A stretch of 58,983 bases of DNA from a virus. The DNA is taken from the IMG/VR virus record IMGVR_UViG_3300037193_001959, positions 1 to 58,983 of that record; one strand, 5' to 3'. Below, one piece after another: positions 21,958 to 55,867 of this stretch (position 1 is its first letter; the number at the start of each line of letters is the position of its first letter). Below the pieces are notes generated by a model. The model was not told the origin of the DNA and did no database searches. It saw only the letters and a program-made list of their open reading frames with translations. A program made the translations under genes and the position numbers.

Positions 21958-22794
21958 CTACTTGGGCATGGGGAACTTCTCCGGCGAAGCGCCGCCGGGC
22001 TTGTAGCGCAGGATCCGCAGCTCGGTGCCGTCGCGGTAGGCGTTCCACGCCTTGATCACGAAGGCCAGGAGCATGTCCTCGGGGACACGGCCGGCGTTGT
22101 CGTTCAGCTCCGCGGCGCGCTTCCGCAGCGTCCACACGGGGTGGTACTGCTCCAGGTCGGCGCCGGAGCCGAGGCGGTCGAAGAACCACGCCGCGTCCTC
22201 GGCGTCGATCTTGGCGAATACCCAGTGGGTGAGGGCGATGACGGACGCGGGGAGTCGGCCGGTCTTGCGGACCGTGGCGGCGACCTTCGCCGAGTCGCGG
22301 GTCTCCGGGTGCTGCTCAAGGAAGGTCAGGCACTCGGTGTTCGTCGGGGTGTAGGCGCCGGTGTTGCGGTGCTGGCCCTGGGTCCACATCAGGGCGCGGC
22401 GCAGGAGGGAGCCGAGGATGACGGCGTTGTGTTCGCCTCGGAGGTGGAGGGCGTCGGACAGCGTGCGCTTCCGCCCGTCGTCCATGGTCTCCTGGGTGGA
22501 GTTGGGCAGGCCGGTGACGACCAGCATGCGGAGGCTGACGCCGGACAGGGCGAGGGCCTGCAGCCGGTGCTGGCCGTCGAGGAGGGTGCCGTCGGCGGCG
22601 AACTTGATGGACTCGCCGTTCTCAGCCCAGTTGCCTGCTTCCATGTCGCGGGCGTAGGCGAGGACCGCCTTTTCCCGCAGGTTGCGGTTGTGGGTGTTCT
22701 GGGTGAGCCACTTCTCGGCGAGTTCCGGGGTGACGTTCATGACCTTGTACTTGGGGCCCTTGGCGGCCGGGCCGGGTACGGTGGTGGTGCTCAC
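21958..22794 (-). CDS. ParB/sulfiredoxin-fold protein
   Basis: The product has 278 residues. It has NVTPELAEKWLTQNTHNRNL, YARDMEAGNW and TLLDGQHRLQALALSG. The last is the ParB/Srx-fold nucleotide-binding motif (GQHRLxA). LVVTGLPNSTQETMDDGRKR follows, then a helical C-domain. Phage proteins of this type are encoded near recombination and replication genes; whether they bind DNA, CTP or cut DNA is not settled. The stop of the next upstream gene is immediately adjacent. Confidence 0.75.
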   Translation of the reverse strand: MSTTTVPGPAAKGPKYKVMNVTPELAEKWLTQNTHNRNLREKAVLAYARDMEAGNWAENGESIKFAADGTLLDGQHRLQALALSGVSLRMLVVTGLPNSTQETMDDGRKRTLSDALHLRGEHNAVILGSLLRRALMWTQGQHRNTGAYTPTNTECLTFLEQHPETRDSAKVAATVRKTGRLPASVIALTHWVFAKIDAEDAAWFFDRLGSGADLEQYHPVWTLRKRAAELNDNAGRVPEDMLLAFVIKAWNAYRDGTELRILRYKPGGASPEKFPMPK

Positions 22795-24125: not shown

Positions 24126-24332
24126 TCAGGGCCGGTGCTGGTAGATGAGGGACAACGACACGCCGTACTCGCGGGCGAGATCGCGGGCCTTTTCGCAGTC
24201 CGCGAGGCGCTGCCGGATCTCGTCGCGCTGCGCGGGGGTGAGCTTCGGTGGCCGGCCGCCGCCGTATCGGCGGGGCTGCACGTTGTCCTGGCGGCGGGCC
24301 CAGTCCCGCTGACCGTCCGTCGCGGCGTTCAC
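24126..24332 (-). CDS. Small HTH protein, resolvase C-terminal type
   Basis: The product has 68 residues from a GTG coupled to the methyltransferase stop. GRPPKLTPAQRDEIRQRLAD, then ARDLAREYGVSLSLIYQHRP, matches the Hin/resolvase C-terminal helix-turn-helix. The proteins at 32889-33110 and, more loosely, other small early proteins share this form. It is probably a DNA-binding regulator. Confidence 0.7.
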   Translation of the reverse strand: MNAATDGQRDWARRQDNVQPRRYGGGRPPKLTPAQRDEIRQRLADCEKARDLAREYGVSLSLIYQHRP

Positions 24333-25675
24333 CGGGCGCTCACCGCCTCGACCGCTCGTGCGTGGAGGGTGCGGAGCCCGGCGGCGATCTGCTGCCACAC
24401 CACGCTGTTCCCGAGCGCCTTCAGGCGGGCGTTGCGCAGCCCCGCCGCACTCATGCCGGGCGGGCCCGGCACGGCGGTGACCCAGCCGGCGGGCAGGCCC
24501 ATCATCCACTCGACGAAGACGGGGCTCAGGCGTCCCAGAGCATCGGTTGGCCGGGGCGCGGGCCGTCCGAGGACGGCCTCCCACCGGCGGACGGCGGGTT
24601 CGTACACGCCCCACGCAACGTCGGGTTGCCACGCATGTACGTGGATGTCGACCGTTCGCTGTCCGCCGCTGTGGGCGTCGGCAGGAGTCGGGTGGCGTCC
24701 GTCAGCGTCATGCCGTACCCGCTGCCGTAGGGCGTCCCGTCCGGACGGAAGTTCGCCGTGTCGTTCGCGTCCGCCCTCGTCGGCGTCGGCAGCAGGTGTT
24801 CGACCTCGTCCGCCAGCGTCGGGCCGTGCCCTCCCGCCTTCCGCTTGTCTGGGTGCTGACTGCCTCCGTTCACGGCCAACTGCGCCGTCGGCGTCTTCAG
24901 CAGTTGCACGACGGAGGGAAGCCCGTCGTTGTACCCGGTCCCCTTGCTGTCCCTCGCCCGGGGCGTCGGCAGGTTCGCGATCCGGGCCCGAAGCGTGTCG
25001 TTCCGGTAGCCCTCTGGCGCTCCCGGGCCTCTGCCCTCGCTCGTCGTCGGCGTCGGCAGCAGCGCGGGGCCAGGCGAGGATGACGACCCGGCGTCGGCGG
25101 TGGGGGGCGCAGACGTCGGATGCGGCGAGCATCGTCCATTCCGCATCGAACCCGAGGCCGGCCAGGTCGCCGAGTACGGCTCCGGCAGCTCGAAGAATCC
25201 CTCCTGCGGCGGGACCTTCATCCACAGTTGCCGGTCCGGGTCCCATCTCACGACAAGCCGGGGTGGAGAGGAGCCCTTCGACATTTTCGATCACCACGAG
25301 TCGGGGTCGGAGGATGCTGATGGCGCGGGCCATGTGTGCCCACAGCCCGGAGCGGGTGCCGGGCGCGAGCCCGGCGCGGGGCCCGGAGGCGGAGACGTCG
25401 GTGCAGGGGAAGCCGCCGGTGAGGATGTCGGGCCGGCCGTACTCGGCGAGTACCTGGTGCCAGTCGATGGCGGTGAGGTCGCCGAGGTTCGGCACGCCGG
25501 GCCAGTGGTGGGCGAGGACGTGCGCGGCGTACTGCCACCGGTCGGGACGGCCGTGCTTGTCGGGCGGCTCGAACTGGCAGTGCCACACGACCTCGCCGCC
25601 GTAGACGTCCTTGACGGCCAGGTCGAGAGGGCCGATGCCGGTGAACAGGGAGGCGATACGCGGTCCGTTGGTCAT
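24329..25675 (-). CDS. C5-cytosine DNA methyltransferase
   Basis: The product has 448 residues from an ATG. Motif I is SLFTGIGPLDLAV and motif IV is TGGFPCTDVS (catalytic Cys91). Motif VI is VIENVEGLL (Glu130, Asn131), motif VIII is PHRRRRVVILAW and motif X is GNSVVWQQIA near the end. The target-recognition part, about residues 205-360, is Arg/Asp/Ala-rich with repeated AADADDERG and AADADEGG units. That composition is unusual and reflects a second long open frame (24526-25284) over the same bases. The enzyme probably protects phage DNA from restriction. It lies beside the DpdA/YhhQ module. Confidence 0.9.
   Translation of the reverse strand: MTNGPRIASLFTGIGPLDLAVKDVYGGEVVWHCQFEPPDKHGRPDRWQYAAHVLAHHWPGVPNLGDLTAIDWHQVLAEYGRPDILTGGFPCTDVSASGPRAGLAPGTRSGLWAHMARAISILRPRLVVIENVEGLLSTPACREMGPGPATVDEGPAAGGILRAAGAVLGDLAGLGFDAEWTMLAASDVCAPHRRRRVVILAWPRAAADADDERGQRPGSARGLPERHASGPDREPADAPGEGQQGDRVQRRASLRRATAEDADGAVGRERRQSAPRQAEGGRARPDAGGRGRTPAADADEGGRERHGELPSGRDALRQRVRHDADGRHPTPADAHSGGQRTVDIHVHAWQPDVAWGVYEPAVRRWEAVLGRPAPRPTDALGRLSPVFVEWMMGLPAGWVTAVPGPPGMSAAGLRNARLKALGNSVVWQQIAAGLRTLHARAVEAVSAR
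24526..25284 (-). CDS. Overlapping second frame with LLPTPT repeats inside the methyltransferase
   Basis: The 252-codon frame is offset by one base from the methyltransferase and covers its residues 131-383. It reads like a protein: PEPYSATWPASGSMRNGRCS, then SAPPT and SSSSPGPALLPTPTT. Four further LPTP-type units, such as NLPTPRARDS and LLPTPTAADS, follow. The AADAD repeats of the methyltransferase and the LLPTPT repeats are the same bases read in two frames. I recall similar LPTP proteins reported near C5 methyltransferases in other actinobacterial phages. No good ribosome binding site precedes the ATG, and a stop lies three codons upstream, so translation is unproven. Confidence 0.45.
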   Translation of the reverse strand: MSKGSSPPRLVVRWDPDRQLWMKVPPQEGFFELPEPYSATWPASGSMRNGRCSPHPTSAPPTADAGSSSSPGPALLPTPTTSEGRGPGAPEGYRNDTLRARIANLPTPRARDSKGTGYNDGLPSVVQLLKTPTAQLAVNGGSQHPDKRKAGGHGPTLADEVEHLLPTPTRADANDTANFRPDGTPYGSGYGMTLTDATRLLPTPTAADSERSTSTYMRGNPTLRGACTNPPSAGGRPSSDGPRPGQPMLWDA

Positions 25676-26295
25676 CGCTGCACCGCCACGGTTGCGGCCG
25701 GCCACTGCACGCCGTCCAGCGCGCGCCGCTGCTGCGCCGGCACCTCCAGCAGCGGGAACCCGAGCCAGTCCGCGCCAATCGCCGCGAGCGTCGCCGCGTC
25801 CGCGGCGTCGTACCGGCCCGCGCCTTCGCACGAGATGCCGAGCTGCTCCACAACGAAGGTGTGGACCATGCCCTTCGCGACCCGCGCCCGCTTCTCCTTC
25901 GGCTGGTCCTTCGCGGGGACCGCGGAGCCGGTCGCGTAGATGGTGCGGCAGTGCGGCGGCACGACCGCGTACGGGATCCCGCGGCGCCACAGACCGTGGG
26001 TGAGGATCCACCACAGGCCGGCGGTCTCGTGCTGGCCGGGCAGCATCTTCGACCCGTACGAGGGGCCTTCGATGACGACGAGGTCTGCCCTCTTGGTGCG
26101 GTCGAGGACTTCCGAACGGAGCCATTCGAGGCGGGCGTGGCCGCGGTCGGGGTGTTTCCAGCGGAGGGCGTCGGCGGTGTCGGGGGTGGCTATGCCGAGG
26201 CTGGTGAGGCTGCTGTCGATGCCGATGACGAGGGGCCGGGGGCCCGGCGCAGGGGTGTCCTGCGCCGGGGCCGGCGTGGCGGCGGGGGCGGTCAC
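25672..26295 (-). CDS. ruvC: RuvC-like Holliday junction resolvase
   Basis: The product has 207 residues from a GTG coupled to the upstream stop. The RNase H-like fold shows LVIGIDSSLTSLGIA (Asp27), DLVVIEGPSYG (Glu76) and GAGRYDAADAATLAAIGADW (Asp163 and Asp166). These are the four acidic residues of RuvC-type resolvases. It would resolve replication and recombination intermediates made by the YqaJ/ERF pair. A second resolvase-type gene (endonuclease VII-like) lies at 15216. Confidence 0.82.
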   Translation of the reverse strand: MTAPAATPAPAQDTPAPGPRPLVIGIDSSLTSLGIATPDTADALRWKHPDRGHARLEWLRSEVLDRTKRADLVVIEGPSYGSKMLPGQHETAGLWWILTHGLWRRGIPYAVVPPHCRTIYATGSAVPAKDQPKEKRARVAKGMVHTFVVEQLGISCEGAGRYDAADAATLAAIGADWLGFPLLEVPAQQRRALDGVQWPAATVAVQR

Positions 26296-26945
26296 ACGGC
26301 ACCTCCGAACAGGGCGTCCTGACGGTCGACCGCAGAGAGCCAACCGAGGAGCTTGGGCAGATTGCGATCAGGGCCGAACGCCAGGTACGTGCCGTCCACG
26401 GAGCGGCACCCCATCCACGCGGCCGTACGCAGCCGCTGAAGGCTGTTCACCCGGCCCATGTGGACTGCCTTGCCGCGCGCCTGCGCCTCCGTGGTGAGGC
26501 GGCGAGCGGCGGGGCTCGTCTTCCATTCCGGGCTGCCGGGGCCGGCGATCGGGCCGCCGCCGAGGAACAGCACGTCCAAGGCGTCCCATGGCACGCCGAG
26601 GGTGTCGCAGCCGTTCTGTGCGGCGAACGCCGCCGGCACGCCAAGGCCGCGTATGCGCGCCAGCCACGGCGGGGACTTCGCGAGCGTCCCCGCGGCGTCG
26701 AACGGCACGTCCGGCGCGACGGCGAAGAGGAACCGGCCGGCGCCGTAGCGGTCCACCGTGGCGGCCAGCCACGCGAACCATGCGTCGTCGCCCGGGTAGC
26801 CGTCCCCGAAGCAGCCGTTGTCCGCGCCGACCATGGCGCCGTCTGGGACCCGGTTGCCCTGCGCCGGCGTCGTCATGCAGCCGAGCCGTCCGGCTTCCAT
26901 CGCGGCCCTCACGTCAGGCCCCGACGGCGTGGCGAGATACAGCAC
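26292..26945 (-). CDS. dpdA: DpdA-like 7-deazaguanine DNA transglycosylase
   Basis: The product has 217 residues. Its motifs follow the order of tRNA-guanine transglycosylases and DpdA proteins. They are VGADNGCFG (Asp42), FAVAPDVPFD (Asp79), AAQNG (Gln110), LFLGGGP, HMGRVNSLQRL (162-172) and GCRSVDGTYLAFGPDRNL. Asp184 lies where the catalytic Asp of the GIDMFDCV motif sits. Such enzymes exchange guanine in DNA for preQ0 or a derivative. The neighbouring YhhQ-like transporter, overlapping by 32 bp, supplies the likely substrate. Family assignment is from recall; the substrate is inferred. Confidence 0.75.
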   Translation of the reverse strand: MLYLATPSGPDVRAAMEAGRLGCMTTPAQGNRVPDGAMVGADNGCFGDGYPGDDAWFAWLAATVDRYGAGRFLFAVAPDVPFDAAGTLAKSPPWLARIRGLGVPAAFAAQNGCDTLGVPWDALDVLFLGGGPIAGPGSPEWKTSPAARRLTTEAQARGKAVHMGRVNSLQRLRTAAWMGCRSVDGTYLAFGPDRNLPKLLGWLSAVDRQDALFGGAV

Positions 26946-27456
26946 GGCGCACCTGCCGGGTGACGAGGACGGCGGCGACCGGGAGGGCCGTGGCCCACGC
27001 GAGCTTCCCCGCGAGCTGCCCGCCGACCGCGGACGTGGTGATGGGGAAGCCGGCCAGCCGCAGGAACGCGAGGGTGTCCACGACGGCGCCGACTGTGTTG
27101 GAGGCGAGCACGGCGCGCGCCCAGCCGCGTTCTCTCAGCGGCGTGTACGCGGCCATGTCCGCGGCCTCGGCGAGCATGAACGCCGTGGCGGACGCGACCG
27201 CGAGAGCCGGGCTGGTGGCCCACGTGAGCAGGGCGCCGGCCAGGATCCCGACGAGCACCCAGGCGCGCCCGAGCGCGTCCTGAACGAGGTCCCGCATCAG
27301 GAGGGCGGCACCGGCGGCGAAGGTACCGGCGGTGGTGATGAGGCCGAAGCCGACGGGCACGAGGCCGTGTCGGGCTGTGAGCCAGTTCGCGGCGGCGATG
27401 GCGGTGATGTAGCCGAGGACGGATGCGGCGGCGCCGTAGCGCTGGCGGGCGGTCAC
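26914..27456 (-). CDS. yhhQ: YhhQ/VUT-family queuosine-precursor (preQ0/preQ1) transporter
   Basis: The product has 180 residues with five or six membrane helices. These include VLGYITAIAAANWLTARHGL, FGLITTAGTFAAGAALLMRD and a late VGAVVDTLAFLRLAGFP. The patterns TAGTFAAGAALLMRDLVQDALG and NTVGAVVDTLAF match VUT/YhhQ proteins, which import 7-deazaguanine precursors. It is followed, with a 32-bp overlap, by the DpdA-like gene. No deazaguanine biosynthesis gene was recognised in the window, so salvage of host or environmental precursor fits. Confidence 0.78.
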   Translation of the reverse strand: MTARQRYGAAASVLGYITAIAAANWLTARHGLVPVGFGLITTAGTFAAGAALLMRDLVQDALGRAWVLVGILAGALLTWATSPALAVASATAFMLAEAADMAAYTPLRERGWARAVLASNTVGAVVDTLAFLRLAGFPITTSAVGGQLAGKLAWATALPVAAVLVTRQVRRAVSRHAVGA

Positions 27457-48356: not shown

Positions 48357-51300
48357 CTACAGGGCGATGGTCGAGGGATAGGCGAGACGGATATCGGCGC
48401 CGACGGACTGGGCCTTCGCGATGTCGTTGACGGCGCGGGTCACCGCGAACCGCTGCGGGTTGACGATCTCGAACGCGTCGTACGAGAACACGGGCGACAC
48501 GTTCGTGTTGCCGGAGAACGCCGAGCAGGTCACACCCACGTCGCCCGTGGTCAGGGACCCGGCGGGGATGGTCTCGCTCACCTGCCAGGTGATCGGGTCG
48601 GGGGTGCCGTCCTTCCACACCCGCGCGCTGATCGTCTGCCCCACGATCTTCGCGCGGAGCCACAGCACGTCGTTCGCCGCGTACGTCAGGCCCGTGCTCA
48701 CCGTCGACCCGACGACGGTGGTGACGTTGACGACCTCGATCTGCACCGCGCCGGTCGTCAGGAGCCGCAGCCGCGCCCGGTAGAACGCGCTGCCGGACTG
48801 GTACCGGAACAGGACCGCGGGGAGGAACGAGTTGCCGGTGGCCAGCTGCGACGGCGAGACCGACACGAGAACCTCGCAGTCCGTCATCGACAGCAGCCGC
48901 TGCCAGCGGGTGTTCGCGACGTTCGCGGCAAGGGTGATGGTGCCCTTCGTGCCGTTCACCGCCCGGTCGCTGGCGGCTTCGCCCGTCGACGTCCACGTCT
49001 GCCCCGAGGTGGCGGTGCCCCATCCGTTGGACACGGAGCGCGTGAAGCTGTCGCTCGCGTACGAGGCGATGCCCGAGCAGGTGACGATCTCGCCGCCGAC
49101 GCGGAGGTCCATCGGGAAGTCGTCGCCGAAGCCCGTCGAAGTGAGGACGCGGAGCTGCTCGCCCGTCGCGGTGACCGCCGCGGCGGCCGGGGTGAACTCG
49201 ACGTTCGTGAACCCGAACGCCGACGGCATCGCCGTCACCTCGAAGACCGTCGGTTCCTTCATATCGCCGGCCGCGGTGAAGATGCGCACCTCGTCGCCGA
49301 CCGTGATGTCGCTCGCGTCCGCGTCCGCGCACACGAGGTAGTCCGGCGTCGCGCTGTAGCCTGCCGCGGTCGCCGTCTCCCCCGTGTAGGCGATGGTGCC
49401 GACGGTCCACGGGTCGCTGTCGGTGGTGAGCACCTCCAACTCCGTCGCGCTCGACGTGGCGGCGGCGTACAACTCGGAGCCGTCGGTGTCGACGGTGCCG
49501 AGGAGGACGTCCTCGACGACGCCGATCGTGTACGGCGACGCGGGCACGCACACGAGGTCGATCTCCCACGCGAACTGCGCGAGGCGCTCGGTGTAGCCGA
49601 CGGCGATCAGGTCGATCGGCTCGGGCGCGAGGTACGGGGCCCGGTCGTACGGCACGTTGATGATCTGGACGCGGTCGCCGACATCGAGTTCAGCCGCCGC
49701 GGTGATGGTGTCCGGCGCAGCCTGCAACTTCAGCTTGACCAGGGGGAACCGGTCCTCATCCACCGTGCCCTTGCGCACCCGCCACGCCGCGTGCGGGTAG
49801 CACTGCGCGTCTTCTCCGAGGTTCAGGGTGAGGCTGTCCGCGTACCGGCCGACGCCCTCGAGGTCGACAGACGGGGCCTGCACGTTCCGCGGCCCGGTCT
49901 CCTGCACGTACTGCGCCGAGCTGCCGGACTCGCGCATCACGGTGAGATCGTTGACCGTCGCCTGGTCGTCGCCGACGGGCTGCAGCGGCAGTACGAGCCC
50001 GGAGCCGCCGGTGTAGTCGATCGTCAACGTCGGCAGCTGGTTGTAAAGCGTCGCCCGGTCGCGGTAGTTCAGCCGGGGCAGGGTGCCGTCTCGCGGCTCG
50101 AACAGCACGCCGTCATCGACGTCAGCGGCCGACCGGATCACGTCCAGGGCCGGGGCCGGCAGCATCGGCCCGACCGCCTCGGACGTGCTGTTCTGGTCGC
50201 CGTCGTAGAAGCCGGTGAGGATCGCATCGGCTTCCATGCCGATGCGGCTCATGCGGGCGAGCGCCGTCTCCCCCGCCCATGCCTCATCGGCGTTGTCGTA
50301 TGCGTCCATCCCCGGGTCGTCCGTGGCCACGCCGCCGGTGTCCCACGCGGACAGGTGCCCGACCGTCAGGCCGTCGAGACCATCCCACGTGGCCTGCACG
50401 CCGGTGATCGTGCCCGCGGCGCCGGCGTACGACGTCCACGTGAACCAGTTCGAGGAGTCGTCGACCGCGCGCCAGCCGACGCAGACGTTCGTGGTGCCGC
50501 CGGACACGTACGAGAAGAATTGCAGCCGATGCCAGGCGTCATCGGCGAAGTCGTCGAGCGCGTCGGAGTTCGTAAACGAGCCCGTCGCCACCACGACGTC
50601 ATCGTTGTCCCGGGCCTCGGCGATGACCTGGGTGTTGTCGATCCGCACCCGCACGTACGCCACACCGCCGCCAGCGCCGCCGAGGTTGATCCGCATGAAG
50701 GTCCGCGTCGAGGAGGGCAGCGACGACATCTTGTAGACCATCTCGACGTGCCAGCCGCCCGCTGCCGCGCCGGTCACGGTCGACTTCACCGTCGCCAGTT
50801 CGCCGGCCGACGGGAGCGCCTTCGTCGCGGGCAGACTGTCGTCCGCCCCGAACGTCAGCCCGGTCGTGGCCAGCGGCGTCCCGCCCTCCAGCCCGGACGC
50901 GGCCTGCGTCGCGCCGGCCTCATCCTCCATGGGCCAGTACGCCAGCGGCCCGGCCTCGGAGATGGCGCGGGTGAGCGCGGAGCGGATCGGCGGCGCGCCG
51001 GGCTGCTGGAGGCGCCGCAGCACCCCGGACGCGGTGATGGTGACGGTGGAGTCCTTGCCGCCCTCCGTCCACTCCGGCGGCCACTCGGACACCTCGCCGA
51101 GGAACCGCTGACGGCGATTGCTGATCGTGGCGCTCCCGGCGAGCGTCCACGTACGGCCAGCGGAGTCCGCGAAGGAGGTGGCGCCCGGCGTCTGCGCGGT
51201 GAAGTCCGGGTTCGCGACGACCGCGCCGTTGATGCCGTCGCGGACCTCCGCGGCGAGGATCTGGCCGAGCGGCCCGCGGAAGTTGATCGACTGGATCTGC

Positions 51301-52022
51301 CCTGTGTCGAGCGGCGCCGTGCTCGCGAACACGCTCGTCGTCCCGACGCCGACCACCGGGTCGCCGATCAGCGTCCACGGCCCGTCGATCGTCGGCGCCG
51401 ACCAGAACGACACCACGTGCCCGCCGGCGCCATCGTTGACGTCCAGCGTGGCGCGCACCGCGATCCGCTTCGACGCCGGCACCGGCACCGTCGACGTGGC
51501 CGTCACGGTCGTGATGTCCACCCCGTTGGCCGACCAGGTGAACGCGAGGACGCTGTTCTCCAGCAGCAGCCGCCATGACCGCTGATCGCCCACGGTGTTG
51601 TACCGGCCCATCAGGCTCTGCACGTCGGACTCGAACGGCACGTCGAGCCGGGTCTCGATGCGGACGTCAATGTCGCCGGTGATGTCGAGCGCGGCGGCGT
51701 CGGGGGTGGAGGCGCGGTCGGCGACGAAGTCGTTGATGCTCAGGTAGGCATCGCCCTCGTTCGCGTACACCCGGATCGGGGTGTTGAGGCCCAACTGCCC
51801 GTAGTACGGCGACAGCGGGGAGCGGCGGCTGTACCGCCCGTCCCGGTTGTTGAGCTTCAGCGTGCACGTGCCAGGCTCGACATCGCCGGACTCCGACCCG
51901 CGGCCCCGCTTGATCTCGATGGCCTCGGTGCCGTCCTCGTTCGACCGCACGTCAGCTTCCGTCCACGTGCCGCCGATCAGCAGCTCCGCGTGCAGGTCGA
52001 GGCGCGTCTCCGGGAACGTCAC
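48357..52022 (-). CDS. Large tail tip protein with LamG-like domain
   Basis: The product has 1221 residues. The N-terminus (LHAELLIGGTWTEADVRSNE, then IKRGRGSESGDVEPGTCTLK and NNRDGRYS) is a tail-hub-like start. Two concanavalin/LamG-like segments follow (VRIETRLDVPFESDVQSLMG; GGWHVEMVYKMSSLP). A long hub region runs to about residue 900, with beta-rich repeats at the end (GNSFLPAVLFRYQSGSAFYR). It overlaps the tape measure gene by 4 bp. It probably combines hub/baseplate and host-binding roles. Confidence 0.8.
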   Translation of the reverse strand: MTFPETRLDLHAELLIGGTWTEADVRSNEDGTEAIEIKRGRGSESGDVEPGTCTLKLNNRDGRYSRRSPLSPYYGQLGLNTPIRVYANEGDAYLSINDFVADRASTPDAAALDITGDIDVRIETRLDVPFESDVQSLMGRYNTVGDQRSWRLLLENSVLAFTWSANGVDITTVTATSTVPVPASKRIAVRATLDVNDGAGGHVVSFWSAPTIDGPWTLIGDPVVGVGTTSVFASTAPLDTGQIQSINFRGPLGQILAAEVRDGINGAVVANPDFTAQTPGATSFADSAGRTWTLAGSATISNRRQRFLGEVSEWPPEWTEGGKDSTVTITASGVLRRLQQPGAPPIRSALTRAISEAGPLAYWPMEDEAGATQAASGLEGGTPLATTGLTFGADDSLPATKALPSAGELATVKSTVTGAAAGGWHVEMVYKMSSLPSSTRTFMRINLGGAGGGVAYVRVRIDNTQVIAEARDNDDVVVATGSFTNSDALDDFADDAWHRLQFFSYVSGGTTNVCVGWRAVDDSSNWFTWTSYAGAAGTITGVQATWDGLDGLTVGHLSAWDTGGVATDDPGMDAYDNADEAWAGETALARMSRIGMEADAILTGFYDGDQNSTSEAVGPMLPAPALDVIRSAADVDDGVLFEPRDGTLPRLNYRDRATLYNQLPTLTIDYTGGSGLVLPLQPVGDDQATVNDLTVMRESGSSAQYVQETGPRNVQAPSVDLEGVGRYADSLTLNLGEDAQCYPHAAWRVRKGTVDEDRFPLVKLKLQAAPDTITAAAELDVGDRVQIINVPYDRAPYLAPEPIDLIAVGYTERLAQFAWEIDLVCVPASPYTIGVVEDVLLGTVDTDGSELYAAATSSATELEVLTTDSDPWTVGTIAYTGETATAAGYSATPDYLVCADADASDITVGDEVRIFTAAGDMKEPTVFEVTAMPSAFGFTNVEFTPAAAAVTATGEQLRVLTSTGFGDDFPMDLRVGGEIVTCSGIASYASDSFTRSVSNGWGTATSGQTWTSTGEAASDRAVNGTKGTITLAANVANTRWQRLLSMTDCEVLVSVSPSQLATGNSFLPAVLFRYQSGSAFYRARLRLLTTGAVQIEVVNVTTVVGSTVSTGLTYAANDVLWLRAKIVGQTISARVWKDGTPDPITWQVSETIPAGSLTTGDVGVTCSAFSGNTNVSPVFSYDAFEIVNPQRFAVTRAVNDIAKAQSVGADIRLAYPSTIAL

Positions 52023-55000
52023 CGGAACACCACCTTCTTCATCAGCACGTTCGGGTCACCGCCGCTGGACCTGATCACGCCCTTGAACGGCTCGAACACG
52101 CCCTTCGCGAGCGCCTTGCCGTCGATCTCCAGCACGATCTGGAACGGGGGAAGCCCGGCGCCGTCGCTCCCGCGACGGGCGGCGGGCATCGCCGACACTG
52201 CGCCCGGGGCGGCCGGTACGGCGAGCAGCGACTGCCACGCCCGCGGCACGCGGCGGTTACGCTCGATGCCGAGCGCGTAGCCCTCGGCGGTCATGTCGCC
52301 GATGCCTTCGGTCACCTTCGACGGGGAGCGGATACCGAGCGCGCGCTTGATGGACTTCTCCATGGCGCGGGCGATCTTCAGCATCTGCTTCTCGATCTTG
52401 TCCTGCTTCTTCTGCAGACCCTTGACCAGCCCCTCGGCGGCCTTGATTCCCGCGCCGTACATCGCCTCCGAGGCCACATCGCCGACCTTCCCGGCGTTCG
52501 ACGCGATCTGGCTGCGGAGGCTGTTCATGCGCTTGATCTGGTCCTTGTCCGCGCCGAGCAGCCCGCGCGCGGTCTCCAGTCCACCGCCCTCGATGCCCGC
52601 CTCGGCGATCTCCGAGATCAGGCGCTTGTCCAGGCCCCGCTTGCGCAACGTCGCCAGCGCGGACGCGAGTTGCCCGGACTTGTCGCGCGCCTCCGAGAGC
52701 TGACTCATGATCAGCCCGGTGGTGGGGATACGCCCGCCCGTCGCCTCCATCACCCCGGTAACGTTGGCCGACGACACGATGCCGCTCTTGACCGAGTCCC
52801 GGAGCTGAGACGCGGACTGCCGCAGGTCGGACAGTTGGTCCTTCGCCTTCGAGAGCTGGTCGTTGACCTTCTCCAGATTCTTCTGCTGCCGGATCAGCGA
52901 CCCGCCGATGCGGTCGAGGCCACGGAGCAGCCGGCGCTCCGTCCCGCCGTGCGCCGCCTTCTTGATCATGCTGGACCATTCGCGCAGGCTGGAGATCAGC
53001 CCGCTCACGCTGTCCGGCCGCGCGAGCGCCCGCTCGAACGAGTCCAACTCACGGCCGGCCCTCCGCGAGAACGAGCCGATCGTGAACTTGCTGTCGATCG
53101 ACCTGCGCGCGGACCGTTCCGCCTTCGTCACCCCGCCGCGCGCGAACCCCTCAGGCTTCCGCACCCGCCCCGAGTTGATCGCATCCATGAACGCCACGCC
53201 GTACCGCGCCACCGCCGACGCCTGCACGATGTACTCCCGGTCCGACACCCGGTACGTACCGCCGGACGGCGACATCGTCAGGATTGAATCGGACGTCGGC
53301 GTGCCCGGCCCCTGCACGAGGCCGCCGCCCGGGTACGCCTGCACGTCCCGGACCTCGCCACCGCCGGCGTAGCCGGGCGCCAGGCCACCCTGCGCCCGCC
53401 CGTGGGCCTTCGCCAGCAGCCCCGGGTTCGACGCCCGGTAGTAGACGCTGACGGTGCTGGTGACATGCCGCGGGATGTTCGCCAACGCGTTGCGTACCGC
53501 CCCGATGCTCCCGAGCGCCTGCCCGTTGCTCGTGTACACGACGGTGCGCCCGTTGGGGAGCCTCTTGGTCTTCAACCCGACCGCTTCGAGCGCGGCGATC
53601 GCCTGCTTGTTGAGCGTGGAGACGGTGACCTTCTTCGCGCCCGGTGTCTTGGCGATCGCCGACTTGACCTCGCGGAGGCCCTTGATCGCGTCCGCGCGGT
53701 CCATCTTCACGCGCGCCGTCTTGTTCGGGATCTTCAGGATCTGGCTGGCGAGCTGCCTGGCCTCCGACCTGCTGAGCCCCATCTGCTGCGCAAGACGGAC
53801 CAACTCCGACCGGCCCCGGGAGTAGATGCCGTTGACGCGACCCCACGACGCGCCGGACTCCCGCGCGGAGCTGGCCGCCTCGTCGGTCTTCGTCGCGAGA
53901 TCCTGCAGCGCCGTCGCCGCATCCCGCGCCCGCTGGCTGTTCAGGTTCAGCTTCCCGCCGGTCATGCTGAGGGCCCCGGCGTTCTCGCGAGCCGCCTTCG
54001 CCGCGTCGTCGATCGCCTGCTCAAACCCGATCATGCCGCCCAGGCCCGCGCGCTGCGTCTCGTTCAACGCCACCAGCGACTGCCGCAGCCCGTCCGCCGA
54101 CGCCTTCTGCGCCGCCAGCGCCCGCTGCGTCTGCTGCGCCTGCCGACCGAACAGCCCCTGCGCCCGGGCAGCGAGTTCCGCCTCGAACCTCTGGTCGGCG
54201 AGGGCGTTGCGGTAGTCGTCGGTGTGCTGCTCCAGCTGGTCCATGTCGCCGCCGCCGGCGCGCCACGCATCCTTCAGGATCTTGAACTGCGCCGCGGCGG
54301 TCTTCGCGTGGCCGTCCTTCACCAGGTTCGCGAGGCTCTTGTCCCACGCGTCGACGTTCTTCGCCGCATCGGAGATGGACGGGCCCTTGGTCATGCCTAG
54401 GAAGTCACCAAAGTCGCTGGTCAACTTGGCGAACCTGTTGTCGCTGGCACCCTTACTGACCATGGCGATCGACTTCGACATCTCGTCGAGGTTCGTCTTC
54501 AGCTCGCCGGTGACCTTCCCCCGCGACACCAGCGTGTTCAAGCTCGTCGACAGCGCGTCGACCTGAACGTTCGGCTTGTTGCTGCTGAGCTTGTTCAGCA
54601 CCACGAGCAGGCCGCCGATGGCCGCAGCCGCCAGCCCGATCTTCGCGCCGCGCGACAGCGTGCCGAACGCCGCCGACAACCCCGCGACGCCGCCGCCCGC
54701 CGCGGTCGACGCCGCGCGCATCGCCGTCGCCCGCGCTGTGAATGCAGCCATCGCCGTGGACGCCGCGCCCAAGCCCACGGCGGCGAGGCGCACCGCCTTG
54801 TACGCGACCGCCAGCTGCAGCAGCGTGCTCAGCACGTCCGTCGGGATCGCGTTGACCATCTTCGCCAGGACGTTGACGACCTGCAGCATGCTCACACCGG
54901 TGTCGCTCGCTGCGGCAACGAGGTGCGTCAGTGCCCGGGCGAGGTTCCCCAGCGTCTCGCCGACCAATGGCCCGTTCGCGCGGGCGTAGTCCATGAACTC

Positions 55001-55867
55001 GGCCATCTCCCCGCGGCCGGCGCCGGAGTTCATCGCCCGGGAGAAGGAGATCAGCCCGTCGGTTGCCCGCTGCAGCGCGCCGGACGCGAACTGCGAGAAC
55101 GAGTTCATGAACCGCTCGAAGCCGGCCGACTGGATGCCGCCGGCCATCACCGTCATCAGCCGGTCAAGCTCCCGGGACGCGCCGCGTACGACCGGGGAGA
55201 GGCGCGGCAGCAGCGCCCCGAAGGCGGCGAAGCTCTTGGTGGCGACCGGCATCGTGCTGCCGGCCAACAGGTCGGACCATTCCCTGTAGTCGTCCTTCAG
55301 CACCCCCAGCGCCAACGCAGCCTGCCGCGTCGGCGCCGGCATCGCGGCCAACGCCCGCAGATACTCCTGCTGCGCCTTCGCCGCCTCCTGCGACGTCTTG
55401 CCGTGCTCCCGGACGGCGTCGCGGTACTTCTTCTGCGCTTCGGAAGCCCGGGAGAGAGCCGGGACCTGCCCCGCGACCGCGAGACCGAACGCCCCGACGG
55501 CGACACCAGCAGCGGCAGCGCCCGCGGCGATCGGCACCAGCGACGCGGCGATCGGCACCAACGCCGGAGCCAACGAGATCGCCGCGGCCTTCAACTTGTT
55601 CATGCCGTCGCCACTGCGGCCGGCGGCGCCCGACAGGCCGCCCAGGCCGCCGCGGGCGCCCGCGAGGCTGCCGCCCAGCCGCCGCATGCTCGCGTCGAGG
55701 GCGTCGGTGTCGTCGCGGAGCGTCCGGGTGCGGCTGCTCAGCCCTGCGAGGTGCCGGTCCGCTGCCTGGGCGTGGGTGCCGAGGGTGCGGATGGAGGCGT
55801 TGACGGACGCCAGGCCGCGCGCGGTGTCGTTGTCGACCCGTACGCGGATCTCGATGTCATTCCCCAA
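52019..55867 (-). CDS. Tape measure protein
   Basis: The product has 1282 residues and starts with TTG (LGNDIEIRVRVDNDTARGLA) overlapping the upstream chaperone frame. Long coiled-coil and helical stretches alternate with hydrophobic segments near residues 95-125 (AAAISLAPALVPIAASLVPI). A Gly-rich stretch near 880 (GRAQGGLAPGYAGGGEVRDV) is typical of such proteins. The C-terminus contains IRSPSKVTEGIGDMTAEGYA, a common tape-measure motif. It sets tail length and should predict a tail of roughly 190 nm at 1.5 Angstrom per residue. Confidence 0.9.
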   Translation of the reverse strand: MGNDIEIRVRVDNDTARGLASVNASIRTLGTHAQAADRHLAGLSSRTRTLRDDTDALDASMRRLGGSLAGARGGLGGLSGAAGRSGDGMNKLKAAAISLAPALVPIAASLVPIAAGAAAAGVAVGAFGLAVAGQVPALSRASEAQKKYRDAVREHGKTSQEAAKAQQEYLRALAAMPAPTRQAALALGVLKDDYREWSDLLAGSTMPVATKSFAAFGALLPRLSPVVRGASRELDRLMTVMAGGIQSAGFERFMNSFSQFASGALQRATDGLISFSRAMNSGAGRGEMAEFMDYARANGPLVGETLGNLARALTHLVAAASDTGVSMLQVVNVLAKMVNAIPTDVLSTLLQLAVAYKAVRLAAVGLGAASTAMAAFTARATAMRAASTAAGGGVAGLSAAFGTLSRGAKIGLAAAAIGGLLVVLNKLSSNKPNVQVDALSTSLNTLVSRGKVTGELKTNLDEMSKSIAMVSKGASDNRFAKLTSDFGDFLGMTKGPSISDAAKNVDAWDKSLANLVKDGHAKTAAAQFKILKDAWRAGGGDMDQLEQHTDDYRNALADQRFEAELAARAQGLFGRQAQQTQRALAAQKASADGLRQSLVALNETQRAGLGGMIGFEQAIDDAAKAARENAGALSMTGGKLNLNSQRARDAATALQDLATKTDEAASSARESGASWGRVNGIYSRGRSELVRLAQQMGLSRSEARQLASQILKIPNKTARVKMDRADAIKGLREVKSAIAKTPGAKKVTVSTLNKQAIAALEAVGLKTKRLPNGRTVVYTSNGQALGSIGAVRNALANIPRHVTSTVSVYYRASNPGLLAKAHGRAQGGLAPGYAGGGEVRDVQAYPGGGLVQGPGTPTSDSILTMSPSGGTYRVSDREYIVQASAVARYGVAFMDAINSGRVRKPEGFARGGVTKAERSARRSIDSKFTIGSFSRRAGRELDSFERALARPDSVSGLISSLREWSSMIKKAAHGGTERRLLRGLDRIGGSLIRQQKNLEKVNDQLSKAKDQLSDLRQSASQLRDSVKSGIVSSANVTGVMEATGGRIPTTGLIMSQLSEARDKSGQLASALATLRKRGLDKRLISEIAEAGIEGGGLETARGLLGADKDQIKRMNSLRSQIASNAGKVGDVASEAMYGAGIKAAEGLVKGLQKKQDKIEKQMLKIARAMEKSIKRALGIRSPSKVTEGIGDMTAEGYALGIERNRRVPRAWQSLLAVPAAPGAVSAMPAARRGSDGAGLPPFQIVLEIDGKALAKGVFEPFKGVIRSSGGDPNVLMKKVVFR

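Follow-up and report, generated by a model that had tools for sequence, protein, structure and literature searches.

The window analysed here is a whole virus record of 58,983 bases (IMG/VR record IMGVR_UViG_3300037193_001959). It encodes an integrase, an excisionase, a terminase, a portal protein and a major head protein, which marks it as a temperate phage or prophage. The virus is probably an actinobacteriophage, and its early region carries a dpdA-like gene paired with a gene for a VUT-family transporter. The order of genes on the minus strand is YqaJ/RecE-like exonuclease, Erf-like annealing protein, DnaQ-like exonuclease, small open reading frames (ORFs), VUT, dpdA-like, RuvC-like resolvase and C5 methyltransferase. 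The features discussed below are:

21958..22794, minus strand: PHROG 5931 member of unknown function (E 1.2e-79; its DGQHRLQAL motif is the only basis of the ParB-like reading)
24329..25675, minus strand: C5-cytosine DNA methyltransferase, 448 aa (PF00145, 79.3 bits; PC and ENV motifs in the translation)
25672..26295, minus strand: RuvC-like Holliday-junction resolvase, next downstream of the dpdA-like gene (PHROG 159, E 2.8e-34; start read from the sequence)
26292..26945, minus strand: predicted short DpdA-like DNA guanine transglycosylase, 217 aa, GTG start (PHROG 15826; TIM-barrel model, hhalign, invariant residues)
26914..26945, minus strand: 32-nt overlap of the VUT and dpdA-like genes (direct from sequence)
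26914..27456, minus strand: VUT/YhhQ-family putative queuosine-precursor transporter, 180 aa, six helices (PHROG 4899; PF02592)

A first-pass annotation of this DNA had described the transporter and dpdA-like ORFs as overlapping neighbours, and both were found at the positions it gave. The last four genes overlap in series, by 32 nt between VUT and dpdA-like and then by 4 nt at each of the next two junctions (GTGA where the dpdA-like and RuvC-like genes meet). The 32-nt overlap likely provides translational coupling, and a similar overlap is present in many relatives. Both genes are real, because the dpdA-like family comprises more than 100 homologous loci and dN/dS against the nearest relative, from Streptomyces phytophilus, is 0.18 for the dpdA-like gene and 0.39 for VUT. 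As this closest dpdA-like protein (87% identity) comes from Streptomyces phytophilus, the host of the virus is probably a streptomycete. The annotation had also put a C5 methyltransferase beside the pair; the gene is indeed present, but it is separated from the pair by the RuvC-like resolvase gene, and the second modification that the annotation expected from it is putative. The second half of the methyltransferase contains a long Asp/Arg/Ala-rich insert with near-repeats of ADAD(E/D) and ADAH. Elsewhere in the window, the region 48357-55867 holds two minus-strand ORFs of great length (1221 and 1282 aa), neither of which had a Pfam match.

Assigning the 217-aa protein to a family required more than standard searches. 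Its PHROG has no known function, and scans of Pfam, NCBIfam and PADLOC, including Pfam PF23859 (DpdA) and the PADLOC DpdA model, returned no match. Full-length DpdA seeds and a canonical DpdA profile found nothing significant in the window, Pfam TGT (PF01702) had no match there, and PDB sequence searches with family profiles gave nothing useful. The HMM comparison with DpdA and VUT families proposed in the first-pass annotation was borne out for the transporter, through PF02592, and not for DpdA, where profile-profile comparison was needed. The accepted phage DpdAs of phiG7 and Sonali likewise fail to match PF23859, and the Pfam model therefore does not define the DpdA superfamily. Some relatives of the short protein are named 'DpdA-like tRNA-guanine transglycosylase' in SEA-PHAGES records.

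By hhalign, an alignment of 80 relatives (mean column identity 37%) matched 18 known or annotated phage DpdAs with E 8e-9 over 168 columns, a group of short DpdAs (phage 7-11, Pam5 and two Rhizobium phages) with E 1.1e-7 over 197 of 215 columns, and 14 canonical phage DpdAs with E 9.9e-6 and catalytic positions in register, while GDPD, a TIM-barrel control family, gave E 0.0045 over 40 columns. The comparison with bacterial TGT gave E 0.027 over 19 columns; canonical DpdA against TGT scored similarly (0.018), TGT being too distant for the method. D42, D79, Q110, the HMGRVNS motif (162-168) and D184 each occupy the residue assigned to them earlier and follow the TGT order. D42, D79, Q110, G137, H162 and D184 are invariant across all 80 sequences; D42, D79, the G137 region, H162 and D184 lie in register with residues of phage DpdAs, the catalytic positions aligning with D34, D78, H163 and D182 of the phage 7-11 DpdA. 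The AF2 model is a TIM barrel of alternating beta and alpha elements (pLDDT 93.7, pTM 0.90). Among viral models, Foldseek ranked the Sonali DpdA and a second phage protein, a queuine tRNA-ribosyltransferase, second and third; against the PDB it returned generic TIM barrels, with no TGT among the top 50. The 217-aa protein is thus most likely a distant, short DpdA-type transglycosylase with predicted catalytic activity, the identity that had been proposed for it. Additional DpdA subfamilies have been named after 2019, and a 2023 paper reportedly describes further ones; the short form is a distinct subfamily among the DpdAs compared here and may coincide with one of those named after 2019.

The protein could instead be a transglycosylase that acts on tRNA or another RNA, the phage importing queuine or preQ1 and modifying the tRNA of pathway-less hosts to the benefit of translation. 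The chemistry and transporter family would be the same as in bacterial queuine salvage, TGT is missing from nearly all non-Nocardia actinobacterial host genomes tested, so that a phage could supply the function, and Nocardia hosts keep tgt beside vut. Yet the bacterial TGTs aligned here are about 365-430 aa long with an invariant C-terminal Cys/His cluster, whereas the short protein has about 217 aa and lacks the C-terminal zinc-binding region; it has no TGT-family match, profile comparison places it nearest to phage DpdAs, and its neighbours in the window are DNA recombination and modification genes. We consider a role on RNA unlikely and favour DNA as the predicted substrate.

The identity proposed earlier for the neighbouring gene as a YhhQ/VUT transporter is well founded. 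The 180-aa protein scores 29.6 bits against PF02592, above the cut-off of 27.2, and all 56 of its relatives match this family at E <= 0.001. Against the TIGR00697 equivalog, the NCBI 'queuosine precursor transporter' model, it scores 30.5 bits (E 2.8e-7), below the threshold of 50.95, and 55 of the 56 relatives match at E <= 0.001. Its AF2 model consists of six long helices (mean pLDDT 93.4), as in a six-helix membrane protein, and the best PDB structure match is weak, an ECF S component (E 0.07). By its sequence, the protein is a member of the Vut_1/YhhQ (COG1738) family of queuosine-precursor transporters, and its predicted function is transport; E. coli YhhQ is required for preQ0/preQ1 salvage (PMC5372724).

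The two families are consistently linked. Among 103 non-redundant loci in which the short dpdA-like gene has enough flanking sequence, VUT lies directly upstream in 61, queC/D/E-type synthesis genes are nearby in eight, and neither is nearby in 34; none of the 103 combines an upstream VUT with synthesis genes (Fisher p 5e-4, not corrected for relatedness). In phiG7, one of the eight synthesis-linked cases, a VUT-like gene does occur elsewhere, within the synthesis cluster. A related methyltransferase is found within 8 kb of the dpdA-like gene in 15 relatives, at varying positions, linkage of the RuvC-like resolvase is seen in few relatives, and the remaining window neighbours occur only sporadically near relatives. 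Because these flanking genes are not conserved, the dpdA-like/VUT link is not plain synteny. The transporter also accompanies other DpdAs: a related VUT occurs in 21 phage records, short-DpdA phages included, and in 20 of these a DpdA-type gene lies within about 1 kb, the sole exception being an 8.8-kb fragment. In Sinorhizobium phage phiLM21 the VUT relative is near a DpdA of another subfamily (Pfam DpdA, E 2e-43), and the same is true of VUT relatives in Pam5, RHph_X2_30 and RHph_N3_2. On the protein tree, seven rows carry the synthesis label and require seven changes, of which strongly supported branches force three or more. The synthesis-linked copies are thus scattered, and the sequences indicate that the same enzyme has several times switched between importer and synthesis genes as its partners. 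Seeds for FolE, QueC, QueD and QueE had no significant match in the window, confirming what had been noted from the letters alone, and the counts of importers and synthesis genes lend weight to the proposal that the phage relies on an outside supply of precursor.

Canonical DpdA is absent from the window and from 29 of the 31 related records, a set that includes fragments. Five synthesis-linked loci (L041, L058, L070, L084 and L091, some of them fragments) have the short form with no canonical DpdA found, which leaves the short enzyme as the sole known candidate for inserting the base at these loci. The two forms occur together in Sonali, L073 and the Queuovirinae phages phiG7 and R29Z, and in these phages the function of the short form may be accessory or otherwise different. 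This co-occurrence would also suit a short protein that is not the catalyst but a divergent accessory subunit or a factor conferring specificity, comparable to the eukaryotic TGT with its two subunits. Against this stand the many records without canonical DpdA, the five loci included, and the residues at catalytic positions, all of them invariant, of which a non-catalytic subunit would have no need. We regard an accessory subunit as very improbable and retain the reading of the short form as a predicted catalyst. In Escherichia phage phiG7 (L032:5711-6303) and Vibrio phage R29Z (L161:4767-5351) the short dpdA-like gene sits just upstream of the DNA polymerase gene, and that of phiG7 is broken into two ORFs by a frameshift.

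Some loci have other neighbours. A large neighbour cluster in importer-less loci was set aside, as it appears to consist mainly of antisense reading frames; real PP-loop/Mom-like neighbours occur in some loci only. Eight loci (L080, L096, L097, L098, L102, L108, L114 and L120) encode a GNAT-like protein, recognised by eye, that resembles Mom of phage Mu and lies no more than 6 kb from the short dpdA-like gene. These eight lack importer and synthesis genes, and no such neighbour was seen at any of 96 loci that have them; the protein possibly modifies the inserted base further, or the pattern is just a lineage effect. Genes resembling PP-loop/PAPS reductases flank the short dpdA-like gene in L096, L097, L098, L102, L123, L126 and L028; in L123 and L126 the end of the PP-loop-like gene coincides exactly with the opening of the dpdA-like ORF.

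Full-length QueC is encoded by 8 of 27 genomes carrying such a prophage, including the host of the nearest relative, and a comparison of genomes by eye revealed no clear pattern between an importer in the prophage and absence of QueC in the host. The suggestion in the first-pass annotation that the phage salvages host preQ0 therefore needs qualification: an importer would bring precursor in from outside the cell, and use of preQ0 made by the host is a different route, possible only in some hosts. At the 34 loci with neither importer nor synthesis genes no supply of precursor is visible, and neither QueC nor VUT was found in several of the corresponding host genomes. In Nocardia hosts G009, G012, G014 and G025 a full tgt adjoins a full vut, a host queuine/preQ1 salvage pair. 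The Cellulomonas genome G006 (host of L105; contig C2, 306113-312071) has a weak match to the TGT family together with full QueC and VUT in a stretch of 6 kb, a cluster apart from the prophage that is perhaps another deazaguanine island. In a 2019 survey of phage 7-deazaguanines the largest group had DpdA without synthesis genes and an unexplained precursor, and YhhQ was uncorrelated with any group (PMC6884629). The idea of a DpdA fed by uptake also dates from 2019.

Sequence relationships, fold, active-site conservation, gene linkage and the exchange of importer for synthesis genes are the observations from which we infer, as the quite probable reading, that the pair constitutes a salvage-type 7-deazaguanine DNA-modification module, with transport, catalysis, base identity and an anti-restriction role as its predicted elements. 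The VUT protein, in the host membrane, would bring preQ0, preQ1 or queuine into the cell as a free 7-deazaguanine base, which the short DpdA would put in place of guanine in the DNA of the phage. If the enzyme works as TGT does, D184 would be the nucleophile that forms a glycosyl-enzyme intermediate, D42 a general acid/base, and D79 and Q110 would bind the base. Phage DNA modified in this way would be resistant to host restriction enzymes whose recognition involves G. For a wider proposal the chances seem to us even: that a minimal (about 215 aa) DpdA subfamily of actinobacterial phages and prophages acts alone as a DNA transglycosylase, that its supply is interchangeable (an importer in most members, synthesis in some), and that importer-type modification is conditional on environmental 7-deazaguanines.

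The pair might also be functional and usually silent, the DNA being modified only when 7-deazaguanines are present in the environment and laboratory-grown virions carrying plain dG. Mycobacterium phage Orion, which has DpdA without synthesis genes and is the only DpdA-only mycobacteriophage tested, had no detectable 7-deazaguanine in DNA from M. smegmatis, a host without the pathway (PMC6884629), and Streptomyces are known makers of preQ0-derived metabolites, so soil may supply the precursor (PMC5372724). However, Orion is not known to carry this VUT, and a usually silent pair is a conditional form of the salvage module rather than its opposite. We treat silence in the laboratory as a real possibility, though not the expected outcome. 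If the uptake reading of the module is true, a negative LC-MS result from laboratory-grown phage may reflect the medium and not the enzyme. One DpdA subfamily here has a transporter as its standard partner, with synthesis genes instead in other members, and the uptake hypothesis is thereby open to direct test in existing laboratory phages (Majeke and Aoka).

Several known systems resemble the window pair in part. Salmonella phage 7-11 encodes a singleton-type DpdA (gp032, 234 aa) that shares with the short family its small size, its TGT-like character and the motifs DNG..F, PDV and S-x-DS; the phage too lacks synthesis genes, with about 0.02% of G modified in this DpdA-only phage (PMC6884629). 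Unlike the window phage it has no VUT annotated in the 45 kb covered, and its DpdA is matched by the canonical DpdA profile (E 5e-24), whereas the short family is not. DpdA1 of the phage 9g/Seurat type and of Mycobacterium phage Rosebush, which puts preQ0-type bases into DNA (PMC6884629), has its catalytic positions in register with the short family, but is about 300 aa long and is normally accompanied by its own FolE/QueD/E/C genes. ParB-annotated proteins adjoin several canonical phage DpdAs, and any link to the ParB-like protein of the window is putative. In Streptococcus phage Dp-1 a transporter gene (gp06, QueT) overlaps gp07 DpdA as in the window pair, with the differences that QueT (PF06177) takes the place of VUT and a GTP cyclohydrolase is encoded next door. 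Fusobacterium phage phiFN37 similarly has DpdA near a gene annotated as a queuosine precursor transporter, but its DpdA fits the canonical profile and a ParB-like protein lies upstream. Mycobacterium phage Majeke (gp53/gp54), Rhodococcus phage ReqiPine5 (gp04/gp03) and Arthrobacter phage Aoka (gp38/gp40) have the same two families in the same order, at 45-58% identity, and in the literature searched no published claim of a linked salvage function for them was found. In conclusion, the pairing of DpdA with a transporter has precedents in Dp-1 and phiFN37; new here are the homology test of the short subfamily, the finding that an importer is its regular partner, and sequences which indicate that synthesis genes have repeatedly taken the importer's place.
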